The notes beneath the pieces were generated by a model. It searched no databases, had not been told where the DNA came from, and saw only the letters and a program-made list of their open reading frames with translations. Of a DNA stretch of 64,000 bases, positions 25,119 to 58,359 are shown piece by piece. The stretch is from Nocardia huaxiensis (GTDB lineage Bacteria > Actinomycetota > Actinomycetes > Mycobacteriales > Mycobacteriaceae). The translations under genes were made by a program, and so were the position numbers. Each line of letters opens with the position of its first letter. The first letter of the stretch is position 1. The stretch spans positions 7,316,001-7,380,000 of the forward strand of contig NZ_CP059399.1 of assembly GCF_013744875.1 (NCBI RefSeq), in the 5' to 3' direction.

Positions 25119-25206
25119 CGTCATCCCGGCGCGCTTTTAGCCGGGATCGACACGGATAGCGTGCGTCGCCCTGTGGATCCCGGCCAAAAGCATGCCGGGA
25201 TGACGG
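25119..25206. repeat. 88-bp palindromic interspersed repeat, copy A
   Basis: The element begins CGTCATCCCGGC and ends GCCGGGATGACGG. Its ~30-base ends (through GCTTTT-GCCGGGATC and GATCCCGGCCAAAAGC) are inverted copies flanking an asymmetric centre of about 28 bp. The reverse complement of 58272-58359 matches it at all but a few positions (near 25139, 25168 and 25171). It fills the gap between the convergent TetR gene and the TfoX-C-like gene. No open frame lies within it. It resembles REP/MITE-type non-autonomous repeats. Confidence 0.85.
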
Positions 25207-25261
25207 CGTGCCGCCGCTGATTTCGGCGGGCTGCCACTGCTTTCGGCTGGGCTGCCGCTGG

Positions 25262-26407
25262 TCAGCTCATGCGGGTGGGCTGCTGTCGGCCGCGCGGGCT
25301 GCGGCGAACGGGTGCTCGGTAGCGGGGGCGGTGGGCTGGGGGTTCGGCGGGCGCTTCGCCGAGTTGGGCGCGGAGTTCGCGGCGGCGCTCGGGGTCGATG
25401 AGGTGACGACTGCGGCGGGTGAGGGCGGCTTCCATCGCCCACAGCATGTCGAGGGTCAGGCCCTTCACCGACTCGTCGCGCATGCGGCGGTATGCCTCCA
25501 CCGAACCGAGGGCGGCCAGGTCGTCGAGGGTGAACACCTCGGCGTGGGCCAGCATGGCGGCGGCCTCGGGGCCGAGTTCGTAGCCGGCGCCGGTCCATAC
25601 GCGGACGTGCAGATGGGCGTCACCCCTGACCTTTTCGGCCTCTCGCCAGACGGCCTGACGCAGCGCGTCCGGATCGGCCGGGAGGCCGGAGCGGCCGAGC
25701 ACCTGGGCGCGGGCCTGCCCGGCAACGCTCACCATCGGACGGAAACGCCGGAAGATCTGGATCTCGCCGTCGTGCCCGTAATCCCAGCGATCGAGGTAGG
25801 TGTAGTCGTTGCCGAACGGATTGCCGGTATCGAGCCGGGCCGCCTGCAATGCCCAGGCGCGGGCTTCATTCGGAGTGCTGGGAGTGAGGAAGAGCAGACC
25901 GCTGCGACGATCGATGCGGCCGCGATCCTCTCGTCGCGTGTGGTGGCCCTGCCACCAGCTGTCGAGCGCCTCGGGTTCCAGCGTGCGGTCCAGGCCGAAG
26001 GTGTGCCAGCGCACCGTGCCATCCGAATGCGACAGTGGCAGACGGGTTTTCAGCTGCCGGGCGAGGCGGTCGTCGACCGGGGTGCACCAGCCGGGCACCA
26101 GCACGATCGGATCGGCCGGGTCGGCGTCGAACGGGGTCGGGGTGAGGAACGGGCGGTCGATGAGCACCATGGTGCCCGGCCGCGCCTGATACGACAGCCC
26201 CCACAGCAGTCGCGAAAGCAGTTGCGCGCCACGATCATCCGACAGCACGTGCCAGGTGTCGTGAAAACGATTGGTGCTGAAGCGGGCGTCGGTCCCCGGG
26301 CGCAGGGTGATCACGGTGTGGACGCGACCGGGCGTCCGCACCAGGTGCCGGTGCAGTTTGAGGTTGTTGTCGATCGACCGCGCGGTGGCGGGGCGCTGTT
26401 GCTTCAT
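25262..26407 (-). CDS. Uncharacterised protein with a TfoX C-terminal-like domain
   Basis: The ~381-residue protein opens MKQQRPATARSIDNNLKLHRHL and has a large N-terminal part I do not recognise (VHTVITLRPGTDARFSTNRFHDTWHV, LLWGLSYQARPGTMVLIDRPFL, VLVPGWCTPVDD). Residues ~285-340 follow the TfoX_C pattern: ELGPEAAAMLAHAEVFTLDDLAALGSVEAYRRMRDESVKGLTLDMLWAMEAAL. That pattern is a small helix-hairpin-helix-like module usually attached to the TfoX N-domain or standing alone. An Arg/Pro-rich tail follows. The combination is unusual; a nucleic-acid-related role is possible. ATG 26407 is preferred over 26425. Confidence 0.65.
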   Translation of the reverse strand: MKQQRPATARSIDNNLKLHRHLVRTPGRVHTVITLRPGTDARFSTNRFHDTWHVLSDDRGAQLLSRLLWGLSYQARPGTMVLIDRPFLTPTPFDADPADPIVLVPGWCTPVDDRLARQLKTRLPLSHSDGTVRWHTFGLDRTLEPEALDSWWQGHHTRREDRGRIDRRSGLLFLTPSTPNEARAWALQAARLDTGNPFGNDYTYLDRWDYGHDGEIQIFRRFRPMVSVAGQARAQVLGRSGLPADPDALRQAVWREAEKVRGDAHLHVRVWTGAGYELGPEAAAMLAHAEVFTLDDLAALGSVEAYRRMRDESVKGLTLDMLWAMEAALTRRSRHLIDPERRRELRAQLGEAPAEPPAHRPRYRAPVRRSPRGRQQPTRMS

Positions 26408-26533
26408 CGCGTTCCATGACGCCACAGCGGGCTACCCGCCGACAACCGATTTTCCGGGCCCGCGGCGATCCGAACCACCTCGGGCTCGACCGCCTGCCCG
26501 GAAACCCATGGCCCACAATGCCGTTCGCCCCGG

Positions 26534-27154
26534 CTACGCAGACAGGCGCAGCGCCTCGGGGACGGCCGCGAAGGATTCGTGCAGACGCCTGACCAGCTCG
26601 GCGCGGCCGCCCTTGCCGTCACTGGCCACCCAGCCGCGCCCGGCGATGCTCCAGGCGGTGGTAGCCGTTTCGGCAAGGATGCGGGGGCGCAGATCACCGT
26701 CGGGGAGGGCGAGCTTGCGGGAAAGCTGTTCGACGACTTGCGCTTCCACGCCGGAGCGCGCGTAGGAGAGGTGTCCGAGCAGGCTGGGCGCGGTGATGAC
26801 CAGCCGCCGGGTGGCGATGTAGCGCTCGTCCCAATCGGCGGGCAGTTCGGTGGCGGTGTCGACGAGGACGTCCCGCAGCGCCGCCAGGATGGATCCGGTG
26901 AACTCCCGCTCGGCCAGGGTGTCGAGATAGCCGGTCCAGAGCTCGGTTTCGGCCTCGATGGCCACGGCCTCCTTGGTGGCGAAGGCCCGGAAGAAGGTGC
27001 TGCGCGACACCTCGGCCGCGTCCACCAGTTCCTCCACAGTCGTTGCGGCGAAACCCTTCTCGGTGAACAGCCGGAGCGCGGCGTCGGCCAGAGCACGCCG
27101 GGTGCGGATCCGCTTGCGTTCGCGCAGTGGTAGCGCGCGGTCGTCGGTGGGCAT
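26534..27154 (-). CDS. TetR-family transcriptional regulator
   Basis: The 206-residue protein carries a TetR DNA-binding domain (RKRIRTRRALADAALRLFTEKGFAATTVEELVDAAEVSRSTFFRAFATKEAV) and a helical C-terminal domain. It is divergent from a winged-helix gene at 27287 with 132 bp between, which contains two direct 8-bp repeats. Such an arrangement suggests it controls that neighbour, or is controlled by it. The inducer is not known. Confidence 0.9.
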   Translation of the reverse strand: MPTDDRALPLRERKRIRTRRALADAALRLFTEKGFAATTVEELVDAAEVSRSTFFRAFATKEAVAIEAETELWTGYLDTLAEREFTGSILAALRDVLVDTATELPADWDERYIATRRLVITAPSLLGHLSYARSGVEAQVVEQLSRKLALPDGDLRPRILAETATTAWSIAGRGWVASDGKGGRAELVRRLHESFAAVPEALRLSA

Positions 27155-27207
27155 GCCGGAATCCTAACGCGGGCTGAGCCTGAGACACGAAAGAACCTCG
27201 GTCGAAA

Positions 27208-27232
27208 TTGGTACTTGCGTATTTTTGGTACT
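27208..27232. promoter_or_regulatory. Direct repeat TTGGTACT x2
   Basis: TTGGTACT occurs at 27208-27215 and 27225-27232, 17 bp apart, in the AT-rich space between the divergent TetR and MarR-like genes. The spacing could place two monomers or half-sites on neighbouring faces, or serve as a -35/-10 region. Candidate operator only. Confidence 0.4.
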
Positions 27233-27286
27233 CAGTGTCAGTATTGTTCACATCACCGAGCACCACCTGATCGAGGAGAGATCGAC

Positions 27287-27730
27287 ATGAGCACCACCGC
27301 CCCCACCACCCTGAACCCGTCGATCGTCGGCCGCGCCGAGAAGCACCACAACGCCATCCTGAACCGCGCCCTGGCCGGGACCACCGTCGACGAAACCCAG
27401 TGGATCGTCCTGAACCAGGCGCTGGCCGCCGGCGCGCCGATCGACCCGGCCGCCCACATCACCCGCGTCGCGGCCATGACCCAGTGGAACCACGCCGATG
27501 TCGAAGCCGGCCTGGCAGCCTTGCTCGCCACCGGCCTCCTGCGCTCCCTGCCCACCGGCCAGGCCGAACCCACCGAAGCCGGCCGCGCGCTCGCCGCCCG
27601 CGTCCGCACCGAATCCACCGCGATCCTGCAGGCCGCCTACGGCACCGTCACCCCCGAGGACCTGGCCACCGCGGGCCGCGTCCTGGACACCATCACCGCC
27701 CGCATGGCCGAGGAATTGGCCCGCGCCTGA
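27287..27730 (+). CDS. MarR-like winged-helix protein
   Basis: The 147-residue protein shows a helical N-terminus with an HH motif (RAEKHHNAILNRALAGTTVDETQWIVLNQAL) and a winged-helix segment (ITRVAAMTQWNHADVEAGLAALLATGLLRSLPTGQAEPTEAGRAL), which fits MarR-family regulators or a degenerate version. Strong ribosome-binding site GAGGAGAG before ATG 27287. It lies between a divergent TetR gene and a downstream NTF2-like gene, and may regulate the latter. The conserved beta-wing is weak, so the family call is moderate. Confidence 0.75.
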   Translation: MSTTAPTTLNPSIVGRAEKHHNAILNRALAGTTVDETQWIVLNQALAAGAPIDPAAHITRVAAMTQWNHADVEAGLAALLATGLLRSLPTGQAEPTEAGRALAARVRTESTAILQAAYGTVTPEDLATAGRVLDTITARMAEELARA

Positions 27731-27810
27731 ACACCGTTCGCCACCCCACTCCGGAAACCACCTGTGGCCCTGCGCATCTCCCGCAGGGCCACACACAGAG
27801 AGCGCCAACC

Positions 27811-28221
27811 ATGTCGACGAACACCCAGACCACCGACCACCTGGAAATCACCAACCTGTTCGCCCGCTACGCGCACCTGCTCGACGAAAAGCGCTGGGAC
27901 GACATCCACACCGTCTTCGCCCCCGACATTCGGGTCCACTCCCCCCGCACCCGAACCCAGGGCCTCGCCGATGTCACCGACTTCATCCGCCGCACCGAAG
28001 TCGACGGCGAACACACCCAGCACACCACCACCGACCTCCTGATCACCGTGACCGGCGACCAGGCCACCACCGCCGCCAACTCCCTCGTCTACTTCTTCCG
28101 CGCAGGCGAATCCCCCCACCAAACCAGCGGCCTCCGCCAAACCAGCACCCTCACCCGCACCCCGGAAGGCTGGCGCATCAACGAAATCCGAATCCACCTC
28201 GCCTGGACCCGCAAGGATTGA
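27811..28221 (+). CDS. SnoaL/NTF2-like protein
   Basis: The 136-residue protein starts MSTNTQTTDHLEITNLFARYAHLLDEKRWDDIHTVFAPDIRVHS, which is the standard opening of SnoaL-like ketosteroid-isomerase/dehydratase fold proteins, and ends with WRINEIRIHLAWTR. These enzymes isomerise or dehydrate small molecules in a hydrophobic cavity, often aromatic polyketides or steroids. ATG 27811 follows an AGAGAG ribosome-binding site; 80 bp separates it from the MarR-like gene, so co-transcription is likely. A large terminator follows. Substrate unknown. Confidence 0.87.
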   Translation: MSTNTQTTDHLEITNLFARYAHLLDEKRWDDIHTVFAPDIRVHSPRTRTQGLADVTDFIRRTEVDGEHTQHTTTDLLITVTGDQATTAANSLVYFFRAGESPHQTSGLRQTSTLTRTPEGWRINEIRIHLAWTRKD

Positions 28222-28233
28222 CACCACCACAGC

Positions 28234-28298
28234 ATGATCATCGGGACCTGGTGGCGGCATCGCCCGAGTGGCCTCCGCCATCAGGTCCCGGTGATCAT
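28234..28298. terminator. Large hairpin between convergent genes
   Basis: Bases 28234-28257 pair with 28275-28298 (24-bp arms with two mismatches) around a 17-base loop. The arms start ATGATCATCGGGACC and end GGTCCCGGTGATCAT. It separates the converging SnoaL-like and OsmC genes and probably terminates both. Confidence 0.75.
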
Positions 28299-28320
28299 CT
28301 GTCCAATCCCGGCCCGCGGG

Positions 28321-28824
28321 TCAGGGGCGGCGGATGCGGATTGTGGGTGGGGTGGCCAGGGATTGCCCCACCACGCAGTAGCGGTCGGTGGCCGTCGCGA
28401 GCTTGGACAGGGTGGCGTCGTCGGCATCGGTGTCGACGGTGAAGGTGAGGACCAGGTCCTGGACGCCGATCGGGGCCGCGCGGTCGACGCCCAGGGTTCC
28501 TCGGGCGTCGAAGAAGCCCTCGGCTATTCCGTCGACCGAACGCAGGTGGATGCCGAATGCTGTTGCGACCGAATGCAATGTGACGCCCGCGCAGGCGAGT
28601 AGCGCCTCGAGCAGCATGTCGCCGGAACAGGCGTCCGAGCCGTCACCGCCGGTGGCGCGGTGCAGGCCCGCGCGGCTCACGCCGGCGAACTGGTCCACGT
28701 CGAAGGTGAGGCCCGGTGACGCGATTCGACCGGTCGCCCGCAGCGGGGTGCGTGCGGACTCGGGGTGGTGGCGGTACTGCTCCTTCAGCGGCGCCTGGGC
28801 GGCGCGCAATTCGGTCGCGTCCAT
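28321..28824 (-). CDS. OsmC-family peroxiredoxin
   Basis: OsmC/Ohr proteins reduce organic hydroperoxides using two reactive cysteines. The 167-residue sequence contains DACSGDMLLEALLACAGVTLHSVA, with the helix cysteine in LLACAGV, and RYCVVGQSL with the second cysteine. The arginine that activates the peroxidatic cysteine is not securely placed. It is soluble and alone on its strand; a 24-bp hairpin terminates it. Osmotic or oxidative induction is typical of the family, but no OhrR-type regulator is adjacent. Confidence 0.9.
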   Translation of the reverse strand: MDATELRAAQAPLKEQYRHHPESARTPLRATGRIASPGLTFDVDQFAGVSRAGLHRATGGDGSDACSGDMLLEALLACAGVTLHSVATAFGIHLRSVDGIAEGFFDARGTLGVDRAAPIGVQDLVLTFTVDTDADDATLSKLATATDRYCVVGQSLATPPTIRIRRP

Positions 28825-28881
28825 GACCTGACGTTAGTCCAGTGCGGTTTCAACCACCGTTCCCGGGGATATGCTGAACGT

Positions 28882-29202
28882 ATGCCTCCCACTCCAGGAT
28901 GGGTCAGGCTGAACCGCTTTGCCGCCTGGTCAGCCTACCTTTGCGCACTGGTTGCTTCGGCAACGCTGGCAATGGCCCTCACGGCCGTCGGCTCCGGACA
29001 TACGCAGCACGCCGTGATTGCCGGGATCATCTGCGCTGTGACCGCCTTCGCCGGGTTCACGATCATGATCGCCACCTGGCACCACGACACCCACATTCAC
29101 CACAATGTCCCCAGTCTGCTCAATGACACCTGGGAACGCACGCCGCCCTTCGCCCGCAGACGGGGCAGGCCGGTCGGTATCGAAACCGCTCGCAGACACT
29201 GA
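28882..29202 (+). CDS. Two-helix membrane protein, unknown
   Basis: The 106-residue protein starts MPPTPGWVRLNRFAAWSAYLCALVASATLAMAL and has a second hydrophobic helix (AVIAGIICAVTAFAGFTIMIATW). The loop HHDTHIHHNVP contains five histidines within ten residues and might bind a metal, then comes a basic tail. No recognised family. A ribosome-binding site is weak (GGGGAT 14 bases before ATG 28882). It is on the same strand as the downstream PepSY gene (85 bp later). Confidence 0.6.
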   Translation: MPPTPGWVRLNRFAAWSAYLCALVASATLAMALTAVGSGHTQHAVIAGIICAVTAFAGFTIMIATWHHDTHIHHNVPSLLNDTWERTPPFARRRGRPVGIETARRH

Positions 29203-29286
29203 CTTCCCGGCGCCGCGCATAGTGCGGCGAATCGGTGGTAATGCCTGGCAAAAGATCAGCACCACCGAACGGGAAGGAGCACCACC

Positions 29287-29604
29287 ATGACGGTCCACAG
29301 CCATCGCGGCACACGGACCCTGCGCCGCTTCGCCTTCGGCGCGTTCTTCGCCGCCGCCACCGCCACGGGCGCTGCCGCGCCGGTCCTCGCCGCGCCCACC
29401 GTGCAGGCCGCGGTCGACGAGCAGGAGGCCATGGAAGCCGCGCGGCACGCCCTCCAGGGCGCCACCGTGCAGTCGGTCGAACTCGAGATGTCCAGCGGCT
29501 CCCCGAAGTGGGAGGTCGAAGTCGCCACCCGCACCGGCGGTGAGTACGAGGTCGAGGTGGATGCCATGAACGGCATGATCCTGTCCATCGAGCAGAGCGC
29601 GTGA
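29287..29604 (+). CDS. Secreted PepSY-domain protein
   Basis: The 105-residue protein has a signal peptide (RRFAFGAFFAAATATGAAAPVLA, cleavage near AAP) and one PepSY domain: EQEAMEAARHALQGATVQSVELEMSSGSPKWEVEVATRTGGEYEVEVDAMNGMILSIEQ. PepSY domains occur as propeptides or as small secreted proteins thought to inhibit peptidases. A GAAGGAG ribosome-binding site precedes ATG 29287. A perfect terminator follows 33 bases after the stop. No metallopeptidase is adjacent, so the partner is unknown. Confidence 0.85.
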   Translation: MTVHSHRGTRTLRRFAFGAFFAAATATGAAAPVLAAPTVQAAVDEQEAMEAARHALQGATVQSVELEMSSGSPKWEVEVATRTGGEYEVEVDAMNGMILSIEQSA

Positions 29605-29637
29605 CCCCGGCCGAAGAATTCGTAACCCCGAAAAGCA

Positions 29638-29669
29638 GTGACCCCCGGCCGTTTCCGGCCGGGGGTCAC
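29638..29669. terminator. Bidirectional hairpin terminator
   Basis: A 14-bp perfect stem (29638-29651 with 29656-29669, arms GTGACCCCCGGCCG and CGGCCGGGGGTCAC) with loop TTTC stands between the PepSY gene (plus) and etfA (minus) ends. It is the strongest hairpin in the window and should stop transcription from both directions. Confidence 0.88.
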
Positions 29670-29695
29670 CGAATTGCGCTCAGCGCGAGGGGTTT

Positions 29696-30655
29696 CTAGC
29701 CCTTGTGGGCCTTGACCGCCTCGGTCAGCTGCGGGGCGACATTGAACAGGTCGCCGACGATGCCGTAGTCGCTGATCTCGAAGATCGGGGCCTCTTCGTC
29801 CTTGTTGACGGCCACGATGGTCTTCGAGGTCTGCATGCCGGCGCGGTGCTGGATGGCGCCGGAGATGCCGAGGGCGATGTACAGCTGCGGGGAGACCGTC
29901 TTACCGGTCTGACCGACCTGGAACTGGCCCGGGTAGTAGCCCGAGTCGACGGCGGCGCGGGAAGCGCCGACGGCGGCACCGAGGGCGTCGGCCAGCGGCT
30001 CGACGACCTTGCCGAAGTTCTCGGCCGAGCCGACGCCGCGGCCACCGGAGACCACGATCGCGGCCTCGGTGAGCTCGGGGCGGTCGCCACCGACATTGGG
30101 CTCACGGGAGACGACCTTGACGACGCCCTCTTCCTGAGCCGGGACCTCGACGGCGACCTTCTCGCCGGCGCCGGCGGCCGGGGCGGCCTCGATGGCGCCG
30201 GGGCGCACCGAGATCACCGGCACGTCGCCGGTGGCCTTGGCGGCCACGGTGAACGCGCCACCGAAGATGGAGTGCTGCACCGAGCCGTCGGCGTCGACCG
30301 CGATGGCGTCGACCAGCAGGCCGGAGCCGATGCGGGCGGCGAGGCGGCCCGACACCTCCTTGCCCTCGGCGGTGGCGGCGACCAGGATCGCGGCCGGGGA
30401 GGCGGACTCGGACAGGCCGGCCAGGACGTCGACCTTGGGGGTCACGAGGAAGCCCTCGGCGTCGTCGGACTCGGCGACGTAGATCTTCTCGGCGCCGGCG
30501 GCGGCCAGCGCGTCACCCAGCTTGTCGGCGGTGCCGGGGGCGGCGACCACGACGGCGGCCGGGGTGCCCAGCGCGCGAGCGGCGGTGAGGAGTTCGGTGG
30601 TGACCTTCTTGGGCGCACCTTCTGCGTGCTCGACGAGCACCAGTACTTCAGCCAT
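29696..30655 (-). CDS. etfA: Electron transfer flavoprotein alpha subunit
   Basis: EtfA carries the FAD of the heterodimeric electron transfer flavoprotein, which takes electrons from acyl-CoA dehydrogenases to the respiratory chain. The 319-residue sequence has the FAD-domain motifs [50 protein letters not shown] and the C-terminal [22 protein letters not shown]. It corresponds to FixB (Rv3028c). The etfB stop lies 38 bp upstream, so the two form an operon. Confidence 0.97.
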
Positions 30656-30693
30656 TGTTTTCTTCTCCTGAAAGTCGTTGGGCCCGAGGCGAA

Positions 30694-31479: not shown

Positions 31480-31580
31480 GGGTCTTCGTCGACCTCCTGT
31501 TCTGGTGGCACGTGGGTGGCGGTCGCACGATCGGTTGGCCGTACGTCCACAAGTAGCTCGCGCTGGAGATTACCCTACGT

Positions 31581-31602
31581 TAAGTTACTCATGGGTAACT
31601 TA
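31581..31602. promoter_or_regulatory. 22-bp palindrome in the etfB/methyltransferase divergent promoter
   Basis: TAAGTTAC and GTAACTTA are perfect 8-bp arms around TCATGG (whose core CATG is also self-complementary). It is centred between etfB and the methyltransferase operon. Size and symmetry suit a TetR- or GntR-type regulator; the regulator is not encoded next to it. Confidence 0.7.
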
Positions 31603-31670
31603 GGCTGTGATGTTCTCCATCACCCGATCCGGCTGCCGCTGTGATATTGGCAACCGCTAACGTCGATGCG

Positions 31671-37261: not shown

Positions 37262-38148
37262 AGCTCCATAATGCCCAACTCGCGAATCACGTTCGCCAGG
37301 CCCCGGATCCGTTCGTCCTCGGCGTCCGAACGCCAGACCAGACCCCAGTGCAATCGGGAGTTGTCCGCGATGGGCAGGCGGACGATGTCCGGGCGAACGG
37401 CGAATCGGCTGACATGCATACCGATCGGGTGCACCGCTTCTCCGGAGCCCACGGCCGTGAGGATGTCCTCGATATTCCCGATCGAGACGAGCCGCTCCAC
37501 CTGACGGCCCGACGGCGTGCGGGACGGTTGGAAGGCGTGCTCCCAGTAATCGGGAACGAAACCGGCCGCCGTGGTCGTGGGATAGTCGCCGATGGCCTCG
37601 CCGGAAACCCACTTCTCCTCGGCGAGTGGATGATCGGCGGACACCTGCAACACGCGCCCCTCGCTGAACAGCACCGGCCCGGTGGTCAGGTCCGGTTCCT
37701 CGATGGGGAGCCAGGCCACCAGGGCGTCGATCTCGCCACGACGCACCGGGCCGAACGGGTCGATGAAGTTGTTGTGCCGAATCTGCAAGCCCCACTGCGG
37801 ATATCGGGCTCGAAACGCCTCCCAGAACGGCCGCAGCTCATACCCGTTCAGTGAGACCATGCCGATCCGCAGCACGGAGGTCTTGCCCTGGGCCGTCATT
37901 CGGGCCCGGGCGATGCTCTGGTGCAGGCTGCGGTAGACGGGCCGGAGATCGTCGCGCAGTTGCTCGCCGACCGGGGTCAGTCTCACCGTGCGGCTGGTCC
38001 GTTCGAACAGGTCCGTGCCGACATTGCGCTCCTGCTTCTTGATCGCCTGCGAGATCCGCGCCGGGGAGACGTGCAGCCGTTCGGCGGTGCGGCCGAAATG
38101 CAGTTCCTCGGCCAGCGTCAGGAAGATCTCGATATCGCGGAGCTCCAC
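37258..38148 (-). CDS. LysR-family regulator, duplicate 1
   Basis: The 296-residue LTTR begins VELRDIEIFLTLAEELHFGRTAERLHVSPARISQAIKKQER and has the two-domain effector-binding core. Its GTG overlaps the TAG of the other LysR gene by one base (TAGTG) and its own TGA overlaps the TetR start. The first 41 residues are identical to duplicate 2 and overall identity is about 70% by eye, so the two arose by tandem duplication. Because the recognition helices are the same, both should bind the same DNA site but respond to different ligands. Confidence 0.93.
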   Translation of the reverse strand: MELRDIEIFLTLAEELHFGRTAERLHVSPARISQAIKKQERNVGTDLFERTSRTVRLTPVGEQLRDDLRPVYRSLHQSIARARMTAQGKTSVLRIGMVSLNGYELRPFWEAFRARYPQWGLQIRHNNFIDPFGPVRRGEIDALVAWLPIEEPDLTTGPVLFSEGRVLQVSADHPLAEEKWVSGEAIGDYPTTTAAGFVPDYWEHAFQPSRTPSGRQVERLVSIGNIEDILTAVGSGEAVHPIGMHVSRFAVRPDIVRLPIADNSRLHWGLVWRSDAEDERIRGLANVIRELGIMEL

Positions 38149-39038
38149 TACAGCGCCGCCGGTCCAAGCTCCCGGATGATGTCGGCGAGCGCGCGAATGC
38201 GGGCGTCCTCGGCCTCGGAGCGCCAGACCATCGCCCAGTGCAGCAGCGGGCCGTCGTGGATCGGGATGTGGGTGATGTCGGGGCGGACCTGGAAGCGGCC
38301 GGCGTGCTCGCCGAACGGATTCACGATGTCGCCGACGCTGACCGCGGTGAGGATGTCGTCGAGATTGGTGACCAGGACGCTCTTGTCGACGGGACGGCCG
38401 GACGGGGTCTGGCCCGGTACGCACTCGTCCTCCCAGTAGTCGGGGATGGCGTCACCCGCCGTCACCGTCGAGTAGTTGCCCAGTGTCTCCCAGGACACCC
38501 ACTTCTCCTGGGCGAGTTCGTGATCGACGGAGACCTGGAGGATTCGGGGTTCGCTGAACAGCACCGGTCCCACGGTCAGGTCGGGCTCCTGCACCGGCAG
38601 CCAGGCGACCAGGCCGTCGATCTCGCCACGACGCAGCGAGGTGAACGGCTCCAGGAAGTTGCTGTACCGAATTTGCAAGCCCCACTGGGGATATCGGGCA
38701 CGAAAGGCTTCCCAGAACGGCCGCATCTCGTAGGCGTTGATCGAGATCATCCCGATCTTCAGGACATCGGTCTTGCCCTGCGCCGCCAACCGCGCCCGGG
38801 CGATGCCCTGATGCAGATTCTGATAGACCGGGGCGAGGTCGTTGCGCAGCTGTTCGCCGACCAACGTCAATTTCACTGCGCGACTGGTGCGTTCGAAGAG
38901 CTCCGCGCCTACCGTGCGCTCCTGCTTCTTGATCGCCTGCGAGATTCGCGCCGGGGAGACATGCAGGCGTTCGGCCGTGCGCCCGAAATGCAGTTCCTCC
39001 GCGAGCGTCAGGAAGATCTCGATATCCCGTAACTCCAC
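38148..39038 (-). CDS. LysR-family regulator, duplicate 2
   Basis: This is the first gene of the regulator operon and encodes a 296-residue LTTR of the same length as its neighbour. GTG 39038 follows GGAGGAAG by seven bases; an upstream GTG 39053 would add five residues. The effector domain differs from duplicate 1 mainly after residue 180 (DAIPDYWEDECVPGQTPSGR versus GFVPDYWEHAFQPSRTPSGR). The divergent operator at 39078-39092 is 40 bp upstream and lies between it and the VOC gene. Confidence 0.94.
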   Translation of the reverse strand: MELRDIEIFLTLAEELHFGRTAERLHVSPARISQAIKKQERTVGAELFERTSRAVKLTLVGEQLRNDLAPVYQNLHQGIARARLAAQGKTDVLKIGMISINAYEMRPFWEAFRARYPQWGLQIRYSNFLEPFTSLRRGEIDGLVAWLPVQEPDLTVGPVLFSEPRILQVSVDHELAQEKWVSWETLGNYSTVTAGDAIPDYWEDECVPGQTPSGRPVDKSVLVTNLDDILTAVSVGDIVNPFGEHAGRFQVRPDITHIPIHDGPLLHWAMVWRSEAEDARIRALADIIRELGPAAL

Positions 39039-48991: not shown

Positions 48992-49131
48992 GAACTTGCT
49001 CCTACATGTCCATCGGCCGTTTAGACGAGGGTATCGGTCCCCTCTTCGAGGCACGAAAGTAGGCTGTGCTCCGGCTCAGCAGCCCACAGTGGGAACAACA
49101 GACTCCGTACTGGCAGAAGGGACACCCGCAG

Positions 49132-50526: not shown

Positions 50527-50527
50527 T

Positions 50528-51115: not shown

Positions 51116-51139
51116 GCCGGTCACGGTAGCCTACTTTTC

Positions 51140-51162
51140 AATCGAAACGCAACGTATCGATT
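51140..51162. promoter_or_regulatory. Dyad AATCGA-N11-TCGATT
   Basis: The 6-bp arms at 51140-51145 and 51157-51162 are perfect inverted copies, centred between the TetR and alpha/beta hydrolase genes. The size is right for a TetR-family dimer. Candidate only. Confidence 0.45.
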
Positions 51163-51177
51163 CGCTTGGAGCAGTAC

Positions 51178-51729: not shown

Positions 51730-51742
51730 CGCCGCTACCGAG

Positions 51743-53524
51743 TCAGCGCGACACCGGCTCGCCGGTTCTCTCGCGAACCAGCAGATCGGCGAGCAGAGCC
51801 GAGTGCGTCAGCTGCGGGTAGTGGCCCGCGCCCTCGACCGTGGTGACAGGGTGGGTGGTCGAGACAACCAGCGGGTCGGCCGAACCGACCACGATGTGTA
51901 CCGGAACCCGCACTCGCGCAAGCTTGTCGGCGAGTTCCGCACGGTGCGCCGAGGTCGAGACGGCGGCCAGTGCGGCAATGGTCCGATGGGCGACACCGGG
52001 GCGGCCGAGGTCGGCGGCAGCGCTGACCACCGCCGGTCCGTCCGGCACTCCCAGCTGCTCAGCGAGTTTCGCGGAGGACAGCCATTTCAGCGCGACCGCC
52101 GCCAGCGGCGAACGCCGCACCCACGACGGCCGCTGCTGGAGGAAGTACGGCGCGATCAGGACCAGGCGGGCAAGACGATCGGGATGCCGCAGGGCGTACT
52201 CGACCGCCGCCTGCGTGCCGAGCGAATGCCCGACGAGGATCGGGCGGCTGCGGACCGGAGTCATGAGCTGTTCCGTCCACTCCCCCAGAGCCGCCGAGCG
52301 ACCCGGGTCGGGCAGATCGGCAGTGCCGGACCGGGGCGCGGAGCGGCCGACACCGGGAAGATCGGCTGCCAGCACCGAGGCATCCAGGGCGGCCGTTATT
52401 TCCGACCAGCCCGCACTGTTGAGCGGAAGTCCGTGCAGGAGAACGTACTCGGGTGTCTCACGGTCGCCTTCGAGCCAGGTGCCATCGTGAAATCCGGGCG
52501 CGGGCACAGACTTCCGATCCGAATGGCGTGTCGATGCCGTCGAGGCGGCTCCGTTGCGGGTGGCGACGACCCCATCGGCGTAGGCGCGCAAGAGATCTCC
52601 GACCGGTGGATGTTCGATGCCCAGCTCGCGGGCCACGACATCGGTCGCCGTCGTGTCGTAGCGGTCGCCGGCGATGAAGGCCAGGGACTCCGGGTCGGCG
52701 TTGGTCAGTGCGCGCGGCAGCGCCCGCACGATCCCCACCGGGATGGTGAATCGTGGTGCGGGAACACGGAGATGGGTCGCCACCAGCCGGACCAGTTCGG
52801 GGAGGTTGGGGGTTGCCGGGTCGAGCAGGGTGTAGGCCCGATCGGCGGTGCCCGGCAGAGCGGGAACCCGTGCCAGAAACTGTGCCACATAGTCGATTCC
52901 GACAATGGGGACGAAGGTGTCGCGGTCGCCGGGGAGGACGGGGAGCTTGCCGAGCCACAGGTTGTGAATGAGGTCCGACAGGCCGAAGTACTGGCCCGGC
53001 CCGATGACCGACGCGGGGTTCGCGATCGTCAGGGGAACATCCAATTCCTTTGCCAGCGTGCGCAATGCGCTGTCGGCTTCGGTCTTCGACGCTTCGTAGG
53101 CGCCGGCGCGATAGTCGACGCCGCCCCCGCCGCCGACGGTGGTGCGATAGCCGCTGATGTGGACGAGTCGGCGCAGCTGCGGCTGCCCGCTCGCCCACCG
53201 CGCGACCTCCAGCGCGCCGGTGAGGTTGACGCTGCGGGCCTGCTCCGCCCCGAGCCCGAACTGCATGAGGGCGGCGGTGTTGTAGACATCGCGGATGCCG
53301 TCGAATTCCTCGGCGAGACCCAGATTCGGCTGGGTGATGTCGACGGTGGTGAGGCGCAGTCCGGACTGGTCGACATCCTGCGCGGCGAGCCAGGAGGTCA
53401 GCCGGCCCGGGCTGCCCGCCCGCACTCCGGCGACGACGGTCCGGCCGTCACGCAGCAGTTCGGCGACGACAGCGCGGCCGATGAACCCGGCGGCCCCGAA
53501 AACTATCGAGTCGGCAGTGGTCAT
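51743..53524 (-). CDS. SDR (extended) - alpha/beta hydrolase fusion protein
   Basis: Residues ~1-325 form an NAD(P)-dependent epimerase/dehydratase-type SDR: GAAGFIG (10-16), then YEASK for the catalytic Tyr and Lys. Residues ~355-593 form an alpha/beta hydrolase: LLHGLPLNSAGW oxyanion region, nucleophile Ser in VGHSLGTQ, Asp in VGSADPLV and His in GAGHYPQL. A linker of ~25 residues (ASTASTRHSDRKSVPAP) joins them. Both catalytic sets are complete, so it may reduce and then hydrolyse the same compound. It starts 73 bp past the TetR stop, and its promoter carries a TetR operator. Confidence 0.9.
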   Translation of the reverse strand: MTTADSIVFGAAGFIGRAVVAELLRDGRTVVAGVRAGSPGRLTSWLAAQDVDQSGLRLTTVDITQPNLGLAEEFDGIRDVYNTAALMQFGLGAEQARSVNLTGALEVARWASGQPQLRRLVHISGYRTTVGGGGGVDYRAGAYEASKTEADSALRTLAKELDVPLTIANPASVIGPGQYFGLSDLIHNLWLGKLPVLPGDRDTFVPIVGIDYVAQFLARVPALPGTADRAYTLLDPATPNLPELVRLVATHLRVPAPRFTIPVGIVRALPRALTNADPESLAFIAGDRYDTTATDVVARELGIEHPPVGDLLRAYADGVVATRNGAASTASTRHSDRKSVPAPGFHDGTWLEGDRETPEYVLLHGLPLNSAGWSEITAALDASVLAADLPGVGRSAPRSGTADLPDPGRSAALGEWTEQLMTPVRSRPILVGHSLGTQAAVEYALRHPDRLARLVLIAPYFLQQRPSWVRRSPLAAVALKWLSSAKLAEQLGVPDGPAVVSAAADLGRPGVAHRTIAALAAVSTSAHRAELADKLARVRVPVHIVVGSADPLVVSTTHPVTTVEGAGHYPQLTHSALLADLLVRERTGEPVSR

Positions 53525-53537
53525 GATCCCCTACTTT

Positions 53538-53560
53538 CAGTAGACCGATTTACATATTCT
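53538..53560. promoter_or_regulatory. Operator, copy 1 (before the fusion gene)
   Basis: CAGTAGACCG followed by CATATTCT at the same spacing occurs here and at 54161-54183. Nineteen of 23 positions are the same. It lies 14-36 bp before the SDR-hydrolase start on the minus strand. Confidence 0.7.
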
Positions 53561-53597
53561 GTGGTCGAAGAGAAGGCCGCCAGGCAGGCGGCCGAAT

Positions 53598-54152
53598 TCA
53601 GACGAGCGTTTCGATGGTGGACGCCACCCGCCGCAGCGGCGTGCGATCGCGATGCGCGCGGGACAGCACGAGCCCGCCTTCCAGCAGGGCCAGCGCGGTG
53701 GTCGCCAGCCGCTCCGGCTCGGGGTGACCGTAGGCCGTCAGACGTTCCCGCAAGGCGGCCTCCCAGGAGGCGTAGGCGGCCGAACATGCCTGCTGCACAG
53801 TGTCATTGGTGGCCGAGGCATCCAGGGTGACACCGGCGATCGGGCAGCCCTTGGTCCAGCCCGACGCCTCCAGCCGCTCCCCGAGCATGTCCACGAGCAG
53901 TTCGAGATAGCCGCGCGCGTCATCGGCCTCGGCGGTCGCGATAATGCCCGCGATCTCCGCGCCCGCCTGCTCGATGGCCTCGGCGACGAGCTGGTCCTTG
54001 CCCCCGGGAAAGTGGAAGTACAGCGAACCCCGTGGCGCACTGCTGGTTTCGAGGATCTGATTGAGCCCGGTACCGAAGTATCCGCGCGCCTCGAGCAGCG
54101 ACCGCGCACCCGCGATCAACCGGCAGCGAGTGTCCGCACCCTTCTTTCCCAT
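53598..54152 (-). CDS. TetR-family regulator (LmrA/YxaF-like)
   Basis: This 184-residue protein begins MGKKGADTRCRLIAGARSLLEARGYFGTGLNQILETSSAPRGSLYFHFPGGKDQLVAEAI. Its C-terminal domain reads GCPIAGVTLDASATNDTVQQACSAAYASWEAALRERL, as in LmrA/YxaF-type regulators that sense flavonoid-like compounds or drugs. The same 23-bp element lies before its own start and before the fusion gene downstream, so it likely represses both. ATG 54152 is the start. The ligand could be the fusion enzyme's substrate. Confidence 0.92.
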   Translation of the reverse strand: MGKKGADTRCRLIAGARSLLEARGYFGTGLNQILETSSAPRGSLYFHFPGGKDQLVAEAIEQAGAEIAGIIATAEADDARGYLELLVDMLGERLEASGWTKGCPIAGVTLDASATNDTVQQACSAAYASWEAALRERLTAYGHPEPERLATTALALLEGGLVLSRAHRDRTPLRRVASTIETLV

Positions 54153-54160
54153 GCCCGAAA

Positions 54161-54183
54161 CAGTAGACCGGTCGTCATATTCT
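54161..54183. promoter_or_regulatory. Operator, copy 2 (before the TetR gene)
   Basis: Same element as 53538-53560 with GACCGGTC as an internal perfect palindrome. It starts 9 bp upstream of the TetR ATG, so it would overlap the ribosome-binding region and support autoregulation. Confidence 0.7.
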
Positions 54184-54219
54184 TGCAACCGGGCCTGCCC
54201 CACCAGGTGCCGCGGAGAA

Positions 54220-55467
54220 CTACGGGGTGGCGCAGAGGAACACGGTCGGAGTTCGCCCGATACGCGTAATGACCAGCGTATGCGGCTGCGAGCCACGGGG
54301 TTTGAGCGTCTTGCGCAGCGCATCGGGATCGACGTCGACCCCACGCGTGAGAATCTCCAGCGGGCCGCAATCCCGCCGATGCAGCTCGGCCCGCAGCGGC
54401 TTCTCCTTGAAGTCCATGCGATGCAGAATCCGGAATCCCCGGACCCCCTCCGGCACGGTATCGCCGGTGAGATAGGCAATCCGCGGATCCAGTTGCCACA
54501 AACCATGTTTCGCCGCGTAATGCCGGACCAGCCCGGCGCGCACCACCGCACCGTCGGGATCGACGATCCACTCGCCGGGCTCCCGCTCGGGAATGTCATC
54601 CGGATCGGCATCGGTCATGCTCCACCCCGGCCCGGTGGACGAGAGCACGGTGGCCCGCCGCGTGACCCCCTCCTCCGCGAGCCCCGAGGACCACAGGCAC
54701 GCCTCGCGCACGGCGCCGTCGAGCGAGACCACCTCGATCTCGCCGTCCCACTCCAGACGATCGAAATCCAGTCCGGGAGCACACTTCACGGCGAGATCAC
54801 GCCCCGCATAGGCGGTCAGCAGATCCGGCAACGGCGGCTGCAACTTGGCCGGATCATGCGTCCTCCGCCCATCCGCCCGGCGCGCGGGATCAGCGATCAC
54901 CACCTCGGCGGTGCTGCACGGCTCGAGCGCATCAGCCTTGGCCAGCAACACATTCCGCACCCGCCCGACCACCGTGGCGCTCGTACCGAGCGCGAAGATG
55001 CCATCGGCCGGTGAATCATCCTGTACGGCAACCTGTTCCAGCGTGGCGCGCAGGTTGTGGGCCGCGATGTCGAGTCTGACCTCGTCGAGGTCGCTGCCGA
55101 TGACGGCCGGGCACACGCGGGCCAGTTCGATGAGTTCCGCCCCGATGGAGCAGGTGACGTCGTGAACCGTGCGGCCCGCCAGGCGCTTCGCGCGGTGGCG
55201 GGCCACCGCCGAAGGCGTGGCCTGCTGGAGGGCGTCGTCGGTGAAGAGCCACTCCCCCGCCCCGTCGAGTTTGGCGACGGCGCGGCGGCGCAGGCGCGCG
55301 GTTTCCACCAGTGCGGCCGCGCGGTCACCGAATGCGCGGCGGAGCTGTTCCAGGTCCTTGAGCAGAGACTTGGGGGTCAGCTCCAGCCGGTCGGTCGCGG
55401 CGAGCGCGGCCAGGCCGGCCGCGCTGCCGAGGTAGGCGACATCGTCGCGGGTGAAGGCGTAGCCCAC
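54220..55467 (-). CDS. Class I SAM-dependent methyltransferase, THUMP-like (Rv3037c-like)
   Basis: The 415-residue protein has a helical N-terminus (~1-95), a Rossmann core with a motif-I-like sequence VHDVTCSIGAELIEL, then VIGSDLDEVRLDIAAHNL as the SAM-pocket acidic motif, AEVVIADPARR as motif IV (DPxR), and a C-terminal THUMP-like domain (RILHRMDFKEKPLRAELHRRDCGPLEILTRGVDVDPDALRKTLKPRG). The DPxR motif resembles N6-adenine or guanine RNA methyltransferases, so an RNA target is plausible. It begins 3 bp after the stop of the next methyltransferase gene. Confidence 0.87.
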   Translation of the reverse strand: MGYAFTRDDVAYLGSAAGLAALAATDRLELTPKSLLKDLEQLRRAFGDRAAALVETARLRRRAVAKLDGAGEWLFTDDALQQATPSAVARHRAKRLAGRTVHDVTCSIGAELIELARVCPAVIGSDLDEVRLDIAAHNLRATLEQVAVQDDSPADGIFALGTSATVVGRVRNVLLAKADALEPCSTAEVVIADPARRADGRRTHDPAKLQPPLPDLLTAYAGRDLAVKCAPGLDFDRLEWDGEIEVVSLDGAVREACLWSSGLAEEGVTRRATVLSSTGPGWSMTDADPDDIPEREPGEWIVDPDGAVVRAGLVRHYAAKHGLWQLDPRIAYLTGDTVPEGVRGFRILHRMDFKEKPLRAELHRRDCGPLEILTRGVDVDPDALRKTLKPRGSQPHTLVITRIGRTPTVFLCATP

Positions 55468-55470
55468 CGG

Positions 55471-56448
55471 CTACTTGGCCGCCGCACCGGGCTTCACGCC
55501 GGTGATCATCACGTTGTAGAAGAACTGGCGCGGGACCACGTGCCGCAGCACCTTCTCGTCCAGCTTGGACAGGCCCAGCCAGGCCTTGTACTGGGCGAGG
55601 CGGTAGCCCATGGTGAGCTTCTCGTCCGGCACGGCGGCCTCGAAGGTGCGGACCGGCCAGCCCCACAGGGCGGCGGCGAACTCTTCGGTCTTGGCCAGCG
55701 CGTCGACCGCGCCCGCGCGGCGGGCGATCTCCTCCAGCTCGGAGGGGTCGAAGGTGTGCAGGTCGACGACCGCTTCGAGGGCGGCGGCGCGGGAGGACTC
55801 GTCCAGTTCCGCCTGCGGGCGACGCCAATCCTTGAGGAACGGCAGCTTGGTGACGTTGGTGGTGATCTTCCAGGTGACCTGGCCGAGCTTGCGGGCGTAG
55901 AAGTTGCCGATGGTGGTCGGCTCACCCGCGAAGACGAAACGCCCGCCCGGCTTGAGCACGCGCAGGCACTCCTTGAGCGCCAGCTCCACATCCGGAATGT
56001 GGTGCAGCACAGCGTGTCCCACGACCAGGTCGAAGGTGTCGTCCTCGTACGGGATGGTCTCGGCGTCGGCGACGCGGCCGTCGACGTCCAGGCCCAGGTT
56101 CTTGCCGTTGCGGGTGGCGACCTTGACCATGCCCGGCGACAGGTCGGTGACCGAACCGGACTTGGCGATGCCCGACTGCATCAGGTTCAGCAGGAAGAAG
56201 CCGGTGCCGCACCCCAGTTCGAGGGCCCGCTCGTAGGGCAGCTGGGCGTCGGGGACCACGGCGTCGAACCGGCCGCGCGCGTACTCGATACACCGCTCGT
56301 CATACGAGATCGACCACTTGTCGTCGTAGGTCTCGGCTTCCCAGTCGTGATACAGGACCTGGGCGAGCTTGTTGTCGGTGAGCGCAGCCTGGACTTCCGC
56401 CTCGGTGGCATGCGGGTTCGGCGCGGGATCTTCCGGACGAGCAGTCAT
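55471..56448 (-). CDS. Class I SAM-dependent methyltransferase (Rv3038c-like)
   Basis: The 325-residue enzyme has a family opening (LAQVLYHDWEAETYDDKWSISYDERCIEYARGRF), motif I LELGCGTGFFLLNLM, LSPGMVKVATRN, LVVGHAVLHHIPD, and LRVLKPGGRFVFAGEPTTIGN. The C-terminal ~110 residues are family-specific (FHNVMITG-like end, QFFYNVMITGVKP). It corresponds to M. tuberculosis Rv3038c. The substrate is unknown. ATG 56448 starts the conserved part. It is three bases from the THUMP-like gene, so the two form one translational block. Confidence 0.92.
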   Translation of the reverse strand: MTARPEDPAPNPHATEAEVQAALTDNKLAQVLYHDWEAETYDDKWSISYDERCIEYARGRFDAVVPDAQLPYERALELGCGTGFFLLNLMQSGIAKSGSVTDLSPGMVKVATRNGKNLGLDVDGRVADAETIPYEDDTFDLVVGHAVLHHIPDVELALKECLRVLKPGGRFVFAGEPTTIGNFYARKLGQVTWKITTNVTKLPFLKDWRRPQAELDESSRAAALEAVVDLHTFDPSELEEIARRAGAVDALAKTEEFAAALWGWPVRTFEAAVPDEKLTMGYRLAQYKAWLGLSKLDEKVLRHVVPRQFFYNVMITGVKPGAAAK

Positions 56449-56495
56449 GCAGGGCAGCCTAATGAATGCCCCGGTGAGCCCGCGTATCGGGCTGG

Positions 56496-57257
56496 TTATC
56501 CGCCGGTGAAACCCACGGTTCCCGGACCGTCGACCAAATAGGAACGTGTTCCAACCTGCTGATCTTCGGTGCCGAACAACCCGGCCCACTCGGTGCGCGC
56601 CCGATCGTGGCCGTGCGTGCCCGCCTCGAACACCCGCTTGGCCGCGGCCAGCGCCATGGTCGGCGCCGCGGTGAACTGCCGCGCCCAGCGCAGCGCCGCC
56701 TCGAACACGTCATCGGGGGCGACGACCTCGTCGACCAGACCGATCGCCTCGGCCTCCTTCGGATCCACGAAGCGGCCGGTGTACACCAGATCCTTGGCCT
56801 TGGACGGGCCGATCAGCAGGCTCAGCCGCCGGATGCCCGACACCGGGATCAGGCCCGCCTTGATCTGCGGCAGACCCAGCTTCACGTTGTCGCCGATGAT
56901 CCGCCGATCCGCGCCCAGCGCCAGTTCGAGACCGGCTCCGAGCGCGTAACCGCTGATCGCCGCGACCGTCGGCTGCGGCAGCCGGGACAGGCAGCCCAGC
57001 GCGTTCTGCAAATCCTTGACCACGGCCTCGGCCTGCTCGGGCGTCCAGCGCGCCAGCTCGGCCATCTCGTCGCCGGCCGAGAACACGCGCGCGTCCCCGT
57101 AGACCACCACGGCCCGCACCCCCGGATCCGCCCCGATCTCCTCGGCAGCCGCGGCGATCTCCCATGCCGTCTGCAGATCGATCAGATTCAACGGCGGGCG
57201 TGCGATCCGAAGCACGGCAATGCCGTCATTACGGTCCACGGTCACGAATTCGGCCAC
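56496..57257 (-). CDS. Enoyl-CoA hydratase/isomerase family protein with altered active site
   Basis: The 253-residue crotonase-fold protein has VFSAGDEMAELARW (CoA/oxyanion loop), AAISGYALGAGLELALGADRRI (second oxyanion, with Glu in GLEL) and LGLPQIKAGLIPVSGIRRL. In the last motif the second catalytic glutamate of true hydratases (as in PE-I) is Gln (PQI). It corresponds by position to EchA17 (Rv3039c), where I recall TEI. The change argues against normal hydratase activity; isomerase, hydrolase or decarboxylase chemistry, or loss of activity, are alternatives. GTG 57257 fits the family start (VAEFVTV). Confidence 0.9.
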   Translation of the reverse strand: MAEFVTVDRNDGIAVLRIARPPLNLIDLQTAWEIAAAAEEIGADPGVRAVVVYGDARVFSAGDEMAELARWTPEQAEAVVKDLQNALGCLSRLPQPTVAAISGYALGAGLELALGADRRIIGDNVKLGLPQIKAGLIPVSGIRRLSLLIGPSKAKDLVYTGRFVDPKEAEAIGLVDEVVAPDDVFEAALRWARQFTAAPTMALAAAKRVFEAGTHGHDRARTEWAGLFGTEDQQVGTRSYLVDGPGTVGFTGG

Positions 57258-57291
57258 AGCGGACCAGGGTACTGGCGGGTGGAGGGCCATC

Positions 57292-58134
57292 TCAGTTCGG
57301 CCGCTGCGAACCCAGCAGCCGGGAGCCGTCCGGGAGATCGGCGAAGTAGCGGTCGGCGCCGTCGAAGGCCAGCGTGGGCTTGCCGCCCGCCTTGTCGTAG
57401 ACCGGCATGATCGGCTCGATCACCGGGGTGGCGGCGAGAATGTCGGCGGTGGAGGCGAATTCGCCGAGGGCGTCCAGCTGCGACCAGGTCGGCGGCAGCA
57501 GCACGTCCAGGCCGTCCTTCCACCGGGTGATGGCCTCGGCGGGCGTGCACCAGGTGACCACATCGGCCTCGGAGGTCGCGCCGTCGGCCAGCTGACCCTC
57601 AGGGAGCACGGCCACGAAGAACCGGGTGTCGTAGCGGCGCTGCTCGATCGCCGGGGTGATCCAGTTGGCCCACGGGCGCAGCAGATCGGCGCGCAGCACC
57701 AGGTTCTCGCGGGTGAGGAAGGCGGCGAAGGAGAGCTCGCGGCGCTCCAGCTGCCCGCGCGCCTCGGCGTAGACCGAGGTGTCGGAGACGACGGTGTCGG
57801 CGGTCGGCCCGGCCAGCAGGACGCCGCACTCCTCGAAGGTCTCGCGCACGGCCGCGCACACCAGCGCCTGGGCGCGTGGGCCGTCGGTGCCGAAACGCTC
57901 TGCCCACCAAGCCGGTTCGGGCCCGGCCCAGTCGAGGTCGGCGGACGCGTCGGAGAGGTCGACGCCGCCGCCGGGGAACACCGTCATGCCCGCGGCGAAG
58001 GCCATGCCGCTCACACGACGCTGCAGGAACACCTCGGGCCCGTTCACGCCGTCACGCACCAGCATCACCGTGGACGCGTCCTTGATGGGCGCGGCGGCGG
58101 GCTGAGAGTCGGGCTGGGCAACTGTCTCGCTCAC
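57292..58134 (-). CDS. NUDIX hydrolase (NUDT19-like)
   Basis: The 280-residue protein has a Nudix box whose second half RETFEECG (~98-105) is intact. The first Gly-rich part (FPGGGVDL) is separated from it by a ~40-residue insertion, the layout of NUDT19/RP2-type CoA or nucleoside diphosphatases. It has VMLVRDGVNGPEVFLQRRVSGMAFAAGMTVFPGGGVD at the N-terminal side. Likely substrate: a CoA derivative or nucleotide-sugar. Matches Rv3040c. ATG 58134 is the start. It lies 34 bp upstream of the crotonase gene and is probably in the same operon. Confidence 0.92.
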   Translation of the reverse strand: MSETVAQPDSQPAAAPIKDASTVMLVRDGVNGPEVFLQRRVSGMAFAAGMTVFPGGGVDLSDASADLDWAGPEPAWWAERFGTDGPRAQALVCAAVRETFEECGVLLAGPTADTVVSDTSVYAEARGQLERRELSFAAFLTRENLVLRADLLRPWANWITPAIEQRRYDTRFFVAVLPEGQLADGATSEADVVTWCTPAEAITRWKDGLDVLLPPTWSQLDALGEFASTADILAATPVIEPIMPVYDKAGGKPTLAFDGADRYFADLPDGSRLLGSQRPN

Positions 58135-58214
58135 ATTCGCACCCTAACGTTTGCTCGGGAGCCGGTACAGGGCGGGCAGGACGCGGCGGAATGATCGCGC
58201 CCCCGAGCCCTGCG

Positions 58215-58283
58215 ATGCCGCCGCTCGTCATCCCGGCATGCCGCCACTCGTCATCCCGGCATGCCGCCACTCGTCATCCCGGC
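58215..58283. repeat. Three tandem 23-bp units
   Basis: Three copies at 58215-58237, 58238-58260 and 58261-58283 follow each other without spacers. Each begins ATGCCGCC and ends CATCCCGGC; the first has G and the others A at position 9. The third runs into the 88-bp repeat copy B. It looks like expansion of one end of that repeat. Confidence 0.9.
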
Positions 58284-58359
58284 ATGCTTTTGGCCGGGAT
58301 CCACAGAGCAACGCACGCTATCCGTGTCGATCCCGGCCAAAAGCGCGCCGGGATGACGG
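58272..58359. repeat. 88-bp palindromic interspersed repeat, copy B (inverted)
   Basis: The reverse complement of copy A (25119-25206). Its ends, CGTCATCCCGGC and GCCGGGATGACGG, are inverted copies and the ~28-bp middle is unique. It fills the gap between the hypothetical gene at 58403 and the NUDIX gene start. No coding frame inside. Two near-identical copies 33 kb apart imply recent mobility or transposition in trans. Confidence 0.85.

Follow-up and report, generated by a model that had tools for sequence, protein, structure and literature searches.

Head-to-head dimers of probable CGTC-tagged hairpin repeats with two kinds of arm in Nocardia

Short hairpins that occur in inverted pairs, in high copy and mostly between genes, are best understood from the REPINs, in which repetitive extragenic palindromes (REPs) carrying a GTAG tag are mobilised by a RAYT (TnpA-REP). 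Non-autonomous derivatives of IS200/IS605 possess two unequal subterminal hairpins and leave no target duplication, and miniature inverted-repeat transposable elements (MITEs) and bacterial interspersed mosaic elements (BIMEs) are likewise short, non-coding, interspersed inverted-repeat elements. A further group, the CGTC-tagged REP superfamily, is defined by an unpaired CGTC (or TGTC, CCTC) tag, an 8-9 bp stem with AT at positions 1-2, a CCA tail and head-to-head dimers, and includes dRS3 of Neisseria and RPE-4/6 of Rickettsia (Di Nocera et al. 2013, PMC3733652). Its families CGTC-1 to CGTC-4 share the unpaired CGTC tag, an 8-bp stem starting with paired AT, the CCA tail, a predominance of head-to-head dimers and the lack of an associated transposase; their loops measure 4-5 nt (PMC3733652, Table 1), with odd loops noted in some CGTC-1 and CGTC-3 repeats. 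In the parts of that report on which we draw, CGTC REPs 'apparently lack a dedicated transposase', and the superfamily is reported from five phyla, among which Actinobacteria are not listed; Nocardia is not mentioned there. Here, we analysed a repeat present twice in a 64,000-nucleotide stretch of DNA from Nocardia huaxiensis (contig NZ_CP059399.1, positions 7,316,001 to 7,380,000; hereafter the window, in whose coordinates all positions are given).

The repeat is a non-coding and non-autonomous element and, assessed jointly with the mechanism proposed below, it is probably a head-to-head dimer of CGTC-tagged REPs that belongs to a family outside those described and occurs in a minority of Nocardia species. 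Two such dimers lie in the 64-kb window: copy 1 at 25119..25206 (+), composed, by sequence and folding, of arm B, a spacer and an inverted arm A, and copy 2 at 58272..58359 (-), oriented opposite to copy 1. As the preliminary description had it, the two copies form an inverted pair with few mismatches (87-88 bp, 97% alike); 25119-25205 and 58272-58358 are 97% complementary over 87 nt, and no other inverted pair in the window is as long. Each copy reads C-GTC, stem ATCCCGGC, 9-nt loop, stem GCCGGGAT, CCA tail and spacer, followed by the same parts mirrored. Arm B of copy 1 (25120..25147, +) consists of GTC, the 8-bp stem ATCCCGGC/GCCGGGAT and the 9-nt loop GCGCTTTTA, with the tag CGTC, and arm A of the same copy (25177..25204, -) has the loop ATGCTTTTG, which recurs in arm A of copy 2 (58273..58300, +); arm B of copy 2 (58330..58357, -) carries the loop GCGCTTTTG. 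The ends of a copy pair with each other over 37 nt (86%) in one copy and 34 nt (91%) in the other, which agrees with the ~30-bp terminal inverted ends originally noticed, but each of these ends is a complete hairpin in itself. Both copies fold beyond dinucleotide shuffles (DNA z -8.7 to -9.4; 0 of 200 shuffles equal).

Across 141 strict arms from 111 Nocardia loci, collected with a search pattern that fixes GTC, the loop is 9 nt long in 139, the tail starts with CCA in 122, and a C stands ahead of GTC in 131, as it does in both window copies. The stem has 8 bp with AT pairs at positions 1-2 (ATCCCGGC/GCCGGGAT or ATTCCGGC/GCCGGAAT), its length and AT start being partly built into the search patterns, and 97 of the 99 pairs of neighbouring arms are oriented with their tags outside. 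Spacers between the arms fall into classes centred on 15-19 and 25-32 bp, and the flank upstream of the tag is pyrimidine-rich, with a C-rich preference on both sides of the dimers. Tag, stem, tail and dimer orientation thus agree with those of the superfamily and argue for membership in it, whereas the 9-nt loop, departing from the 4-5 nt described, places the repeat outside the four known families but not outside the superfamily. Compared with CGTC-1 to CGTC-4, as far as the portions of the source used here characterise them, the Nocardia repeats also stand apart by a phylum beyond the reported five, by the obligate difference between arms A and B, by mostly diverged spacers and by the half-arm ladders described below; from REPINs, with which they share the short hairpins in inverted pairs, they differ by the CGTC tag in place of GTAG. 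The repeat has no match in Rfam or among viral contigs and phage records, and a literature search, whose coverage did not extend to most subscription journals, found no work on such repeats in Nocardia.

Arms matching the pattern GTCATCCCGGC-N3-12-GCCGGGAT were found in 35 of 150 Nocardia genomes, the richest of which hold 225, 179, 161, 145 and 141 arms, and in none of the other 115; the reversed pattern, serving as a control, gave no match in any. Recurrence in other Nocardia, the empty control and the folding beyond shuffles together indicate that the repeat is more than a product of chance. The species of the window itself lies outside the 148 Nocardia genomes searched (best match <=86% at one locus), and the many copies in other members of the genus mean that the element is neither limited to the two window copies nor missing from sister genomes. 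The early characterisation of it as REP-like, multicopy, non-coding and interspersed is thereby borne out. A scan of public genomes returned at least 115 stretches, 111 of those listed being from Nocardia and the remaining four from gammaproteobacterial and Desulfobulbaceae assemblies. These four (L010, L019, L050 and L073) bear the same arm consensus, and L050 and L073 have a second, inverted arm close by. In an order-wide sample of 397 genomes, which includes at least 10 Nocardia and possibly more, a similar pattern matched only G001, G004 and G128, each of which is a Nocardia. A single 31-bp arm match on the Nocardia plasmid NZ_CP108384.1 (219927-219957) indicates that the element can reside on plasmids too.

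The element is polar: in all but a few dimers, one arm differs from the other. Arm A has a C-type stem and a loop that is usually ATG or GTG; arm B has either a T-type stem or a C-type stem with the loop GCG. In N. concava (G002), ATCCC and ATTCC arms are paired in 47 of the 48 complete listed dimers, as against a mean of 24.2 stem heterodimers and a maximum of 35 under random re-pairing (2000 trials), and in N. inohanensis (G006) 20 of 21 are stem heterodimers against 10.7 by re-pairing (maximum 18). Strict whole-genome counts put T/T dimers at 4/149 in G002, 2/92 in G003, 1/44 in G006, 0/27 in G001, 0/32 in G005 and 0/33 in G128, and C/C dimers, in the same order, at 2/149, 0/92, 1/44, 24/27, 20/32 and 30/33. 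The window copies are of the C/C kind, with arms differing by loop. Among the 60 fetched of 96 C/C dimers, none had identical loop triplets (re-pairing mean 24.1, minimum 12; 5000 trials) and 49 combined an ATG with a GCG loop; reading 75 listed C/C dimers by eye, we found the loops to differ in all 75 and to be ATG and GCG in 58.

Such asymmetry might amount to nothing more than avoidance of long perfect palindromes, which would be exposed to SbcCD-type cleavage, without any functional difference between the ends. No dimer with identical arms occurs among the 48 of G002 or the 21 of G006, each having at least one mismatch between its arms, and protection of this kind has been proposed for heterodimers in the sections of PMC3733652 considered here. 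Nevertheless, the between-arm hairpin remains very stable, and the mismatches are not scattered but the same two solutions recur (ATG with GCG in 58 of the 75 listed, C with T in 47 of the 48 in G002), so that palindrome avoidance, although a serious contender, is in our view a doubtful account of the two arm kinds.

Inside a single arm, the two bases of the variable stem pair fit each other in 96 of 96 cases in G002 and 41 of 42 in G006, with a pattern that permitted mismatches. In 23 aligned 73-bp dimers, pairing within arms reaches 99.7%, with 15 double-changed cells compared to 5.0 in shuffles, and pairing between arms, at 92.8%, lies under all 500 shuffles. These compensated stem pairs, together with the arm differences, indicate that each arm folds alone and that the ends of the element are of two sorts. 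Separately, a dimer at the same intergenic place (G003a 74504, L066, L101) has a right arm of T/A type in G003 and of C/G type in G001 and G004; provided that one and the same insertion is involved, this is a paired change.

The high identity of the window copies had been taken as a sign of recent spread. At locus L079, a dimer is common to G001 and G004, with 7-16 bp between the flanking matches in G128, G125 and G005, and at L037 about 320 bp in G001 correspond to 4-25 bp in G004, G128 and G125. A 140-kb comparison of G005 with G125, whose identity is mostly 89-96%, shows four dimer loci in both genomes and one in G005 only. Considering these shared loci and absences, the insertions appear to have occurred on the scale of species and are not visibly recent. 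Recent spread is thus not supported, four of the five dimer loci in the single 140-kb comparison being common to two species at ~92-93% identity, even though two loci of another species hold insertions that its relatives lack. Exact empty sites were sought for L041, L068, L087, L032 and L040 in relatives, and absences only were found, the flanks being too diverged to mark ends.

In seven orthologous dimers, changes affect 7 of 224 stem sites (3%), 18 of 124 in loops, 36 of 211 in spacers and 0 of 42 in tags, the difference between stems and loops or spacers (15-17%) having a p of 3e-7. This slow change of the stems speaks for either constraint on them or conversion among copies. When 33 dimers were sorted by gene context, 13 lay between convergent genes, 15 between co-directional and 3 between divergent ones, and 2 inside called genes; convergent pairs thus hold 13 of the 31 intergenic dimers, compared to 145 of 981 intervals. 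Both observations, and the sharing of four in five loci at 92-93% identity, would suit static 3'-end elements, either terminators or mRNA stabilisers, that are under selection and now immobile. Such an origin is nonetheless quite unlikely, because arms are wholly lacking from 115 of 150 congeners and insertions are absent from near relatives, and no T-run terminator was called at copy 1.

The arms of G002 are 95% alike between dimers, and its spacer cores 35%, where composition predicts 29%. From this near-random state we had considered the spacer to be captured target DNA, an idea dropped because a spacer family is common to longer dimers from five species. Built around CCACACCGGCTGCGCTCCAGCAGGTTTCGGTGG, this family occurs in C/C dimers of G001, G004, G005, G125 and G128 and can face either way with respect to arms A and B, and L296 and L302 of G001 have near-identical spacers in opposite directions, which indicates that dimers travel as units and that the spacer can invert between the arms.

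The extent of 88 bp first assigned to the repeat is right for the inverted pair, but homology of the copies continues past one arm for ~30 bp (25089-25206 and 58272-58389, ~118 bp in total). These extensions outside arm B (copy 1, 25089..25118, 30 bp, +; copy 2, 58360..58389, -) are ~80% identical to each other. When the 27 dimer pairs of highest likeness were compared past the arm, 5 were more similar on the B side, and 1 on the A side, than the 99th percentile of unrelated pairs. Three of the five B-side cases are a single trio, L030/L037/L047, and L301/L291 is partly a ladder, leaving the window pair and the trio as independent non-ladder cases. A one-ended process is, on these alignments, a lead only. 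A rare motif near ATGTCGCCGACC was recorded in three species, in the window at 25089-25118 and 58360-58389, in L030, L037 and L047, and in L025 and L093, and may perhaps be a trace of a longer parent element. It was set aside as a B-side motif for want of cases: it occurs at 7 B ends and 3 A ends among 163 dimers, seven of the ten cases lying 18-21 bp from the tag.

At one end of copy 2, Tandem Repeats Finder reports a 23-bp unit in 3.2 copies with 98% matches (58215-58287, +), in accordance with the three stacked units described before. This array is a half-arm ladder on the arm-A side, and it includes two additional 16-nt pieces, CGTCATCCCGGCATGC (58226-58241 and 58249-58264), that end within the loop of the copied arm. 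It had been regarded as a local expansion; the window tandem is instead one instance of a recurrent structure, as an outside copy of the tag and 5' half stem in the same orientation is present at 57 of 338 dimer ends (54 of 169 dimers), compared to 3 in the opposite orientation. The copied piece measures 12-17 nt, reaching mid-loop near the hairpin apex, in 55 of the 57, and the period is 20-24 bp in 40. The 8 bp ahead of the ladder copy are similar to the flank of the dimer itself (0.62 identity as against 0.40), and side-specific stem letters follow the adjacent arm, GTCATTC occurring in 9 flanks on the B side and in none on the A side. In one orthologous dimer, G125 has a half-arm copy on a side where G005 has none, indicating that the ladder arose in place. 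Judging by these features, the 23-bp tandem looks like the scar of a hairpin forming in living DNA. A different tandem, with a 20-bp unit (2.8 copies, 83% matches; 25204-25260) and no evident half-arm ladder, abuts arm A of copy 1, so that in the window a tandem array accompanies the A side of either dimer.

The preliminary description had looked to a TnpA-REP as the mover, and the dimer architecture and the placement at gene 3' ends are indeed those of REPINs mobilised by a RAYT. However, none of 148 Nocardia genomes had a protein over the REP_Tyr_transpos cut-off (nine weak matches fell below it), a profile that one of 14 control genomes did pass. Of the same 148 genomes, 28 carry Y1_Tnp domains, which five of the ten repeat-richest genomes lack (G004, G006, G125, G128 and G140). 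The one classified Nocardia Y1 protein is of IS200/IS605 type (146 bits, cut-off 55) and far under the RAYT cut-off (19.7, cut-off 80), and no CGTCATCCCGGC was found within the 1.5-kb flanks of 20 Y1 loci. The lack of RAYTs in the sampled Nocardia agrees with the statement, in the part of PMC6006769 available, that Actinobacteridae carry one Y1 subclass only, 1.1. A RAYT-driven REPIN is, therefore, highly improbable in this genus.

Movement in trans by the IS200/IS605 TnpA of some strains would account for the unequal arms, since TnpA of IS200 type reads single-strand hairpins at two different ends, and such a Y1 enzyme is present in five of the ten richest genomes. It is missing from the other five, no arms stand beside Y1 genes at the 20 loci, and the Nocardia dimer, although it resembles IS200/IS605 derivatives in its unequal hairpins and lack of target duplication, consists almost wholly of its hairpins, which are inverted; we consider this route unlikely. 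The inverted ends, the patchy multicopy distribution and the C-rich flank preference on both sides would also suit MITEs of a DDE-type insertion sequence with terminal repeats corresponding to the arms, but this origin is likewise improbable. The flanking duplication that a MITE-like element led one to expect was not detected in 123 dimers (lengths 2-6, 8 and 9; offsets 0-6), although old copies could have lost it, and no larger CGTC-ended parent element was found in ~2.9 Mb, which is less than whole genomes. Tag-outside arm pairs 60-4000 bp apart numbered only two in these ~2.9 Mb (G003 and G005); in the one examined, that of G003, the enclosed open frames are by eye unlike a transposase and resemble an acyl-CoA dehydrogenase. 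Moreover, single-arm flanks repeat only via the arms themselves (first 40 of 319 matches), and paired changes within each arm would be unexpected for plain terminal repeats.

As for the neighbouring genes, copy 1 sits between two converging ones, a TetR-type regulator (24485..25057, +; Pfam TetR_C_31) that ends ahead of it and a protein with a TfoX C-terminal domain (25262..26425, -; Pfam TfoX_C) that ends beside it. Copy 2 is upstream of a gene for a NUDIX-domain protein (57292..58134, -; Pfam NUDIX), and an open reading frame on its other side (58403..58963, -), without Pfam match, has its stop 43 bp from the copy. Elsewhere in the window, two 300-nt direct repeats, 66% alike and 890 bp apart (37274-37573 and 38164-38463), resemble a diverged tandem gene duplication, and short tandem repeats with periods of 9, 12 and 24 occupy 6277-6331.

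In the account judged probable above, the dimer, in some cases together with 30-40 bp past one arm, would be copied to new sites by machinery other than a RAYT that handles each hairpin on its own and distinguishes between the two ends. Once in place, the hairpin would extrude in DNA made single-stranded at replication, and synthesis or cleavage might halt near the apex; re-priming on the upstream flank would then duplicate the flank and half arm and so produce ladders, the 23-bp tandem among them. The position of dimers close to gene 3' ends and the slow change of their stems may reflect tolerance and some use as RNA or DNA structures at 3' ends. Going further, we tentatively propose, with clearly less than even confidence, that these dimers are polar mobile elements whose A and B ends differ in function, spread in a RAYT-free genus by an unrecognised system that reads hairpins, stops exactly at the A tag and may run 30-40 bp past the B end, while extrusion in vivo would repeatedly break or pause replication at the apex and so write the ladders into the flanks.

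Several observations weigh against the account judged probable. In silico, a single arm has a DNA folding energy of about -9 kcal/mol, compared to about -38 for the between-arm hairpin, which, being far stabler, should form too, and the polarity could descend from one founder per lineage. The inserts at the two loci with absences are ~150-320 bp, larger than a dimer, their flanks are too diverged to mark ends, and a precise empty site is lacking; in one orthologous pair (L310/L331) the spacer is unchanged (0/33). The extension beyond the arm is seen in two independent cases at the B end and in a single one at the A end. Ladder detection needs 12 nt of arm, so that shorter copies are invisible and 20 of the 57 lie at this limit, and the gene contexts come from a crude gene caller that missed one window gene. 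No mover enzyme has been identified.

How CGTC-tagged REPs spread has been an open question at least since 2013, as far as the consulted parts of PMC3733652 indicate. Nocardia offers a setting in which to approach it, being without RAYTs and having many copies in some species but none in the majority; as closely related species may have a given copy in common or differ in it, a comparative search for the mover is feasible. That the arms are obligately of two kinds points to a mechanism whose two ends differ, and the half-arm ladders would document, in the sequence itself, the formation of hairpins in chromosomal DNA, an event that is usually hard to show.

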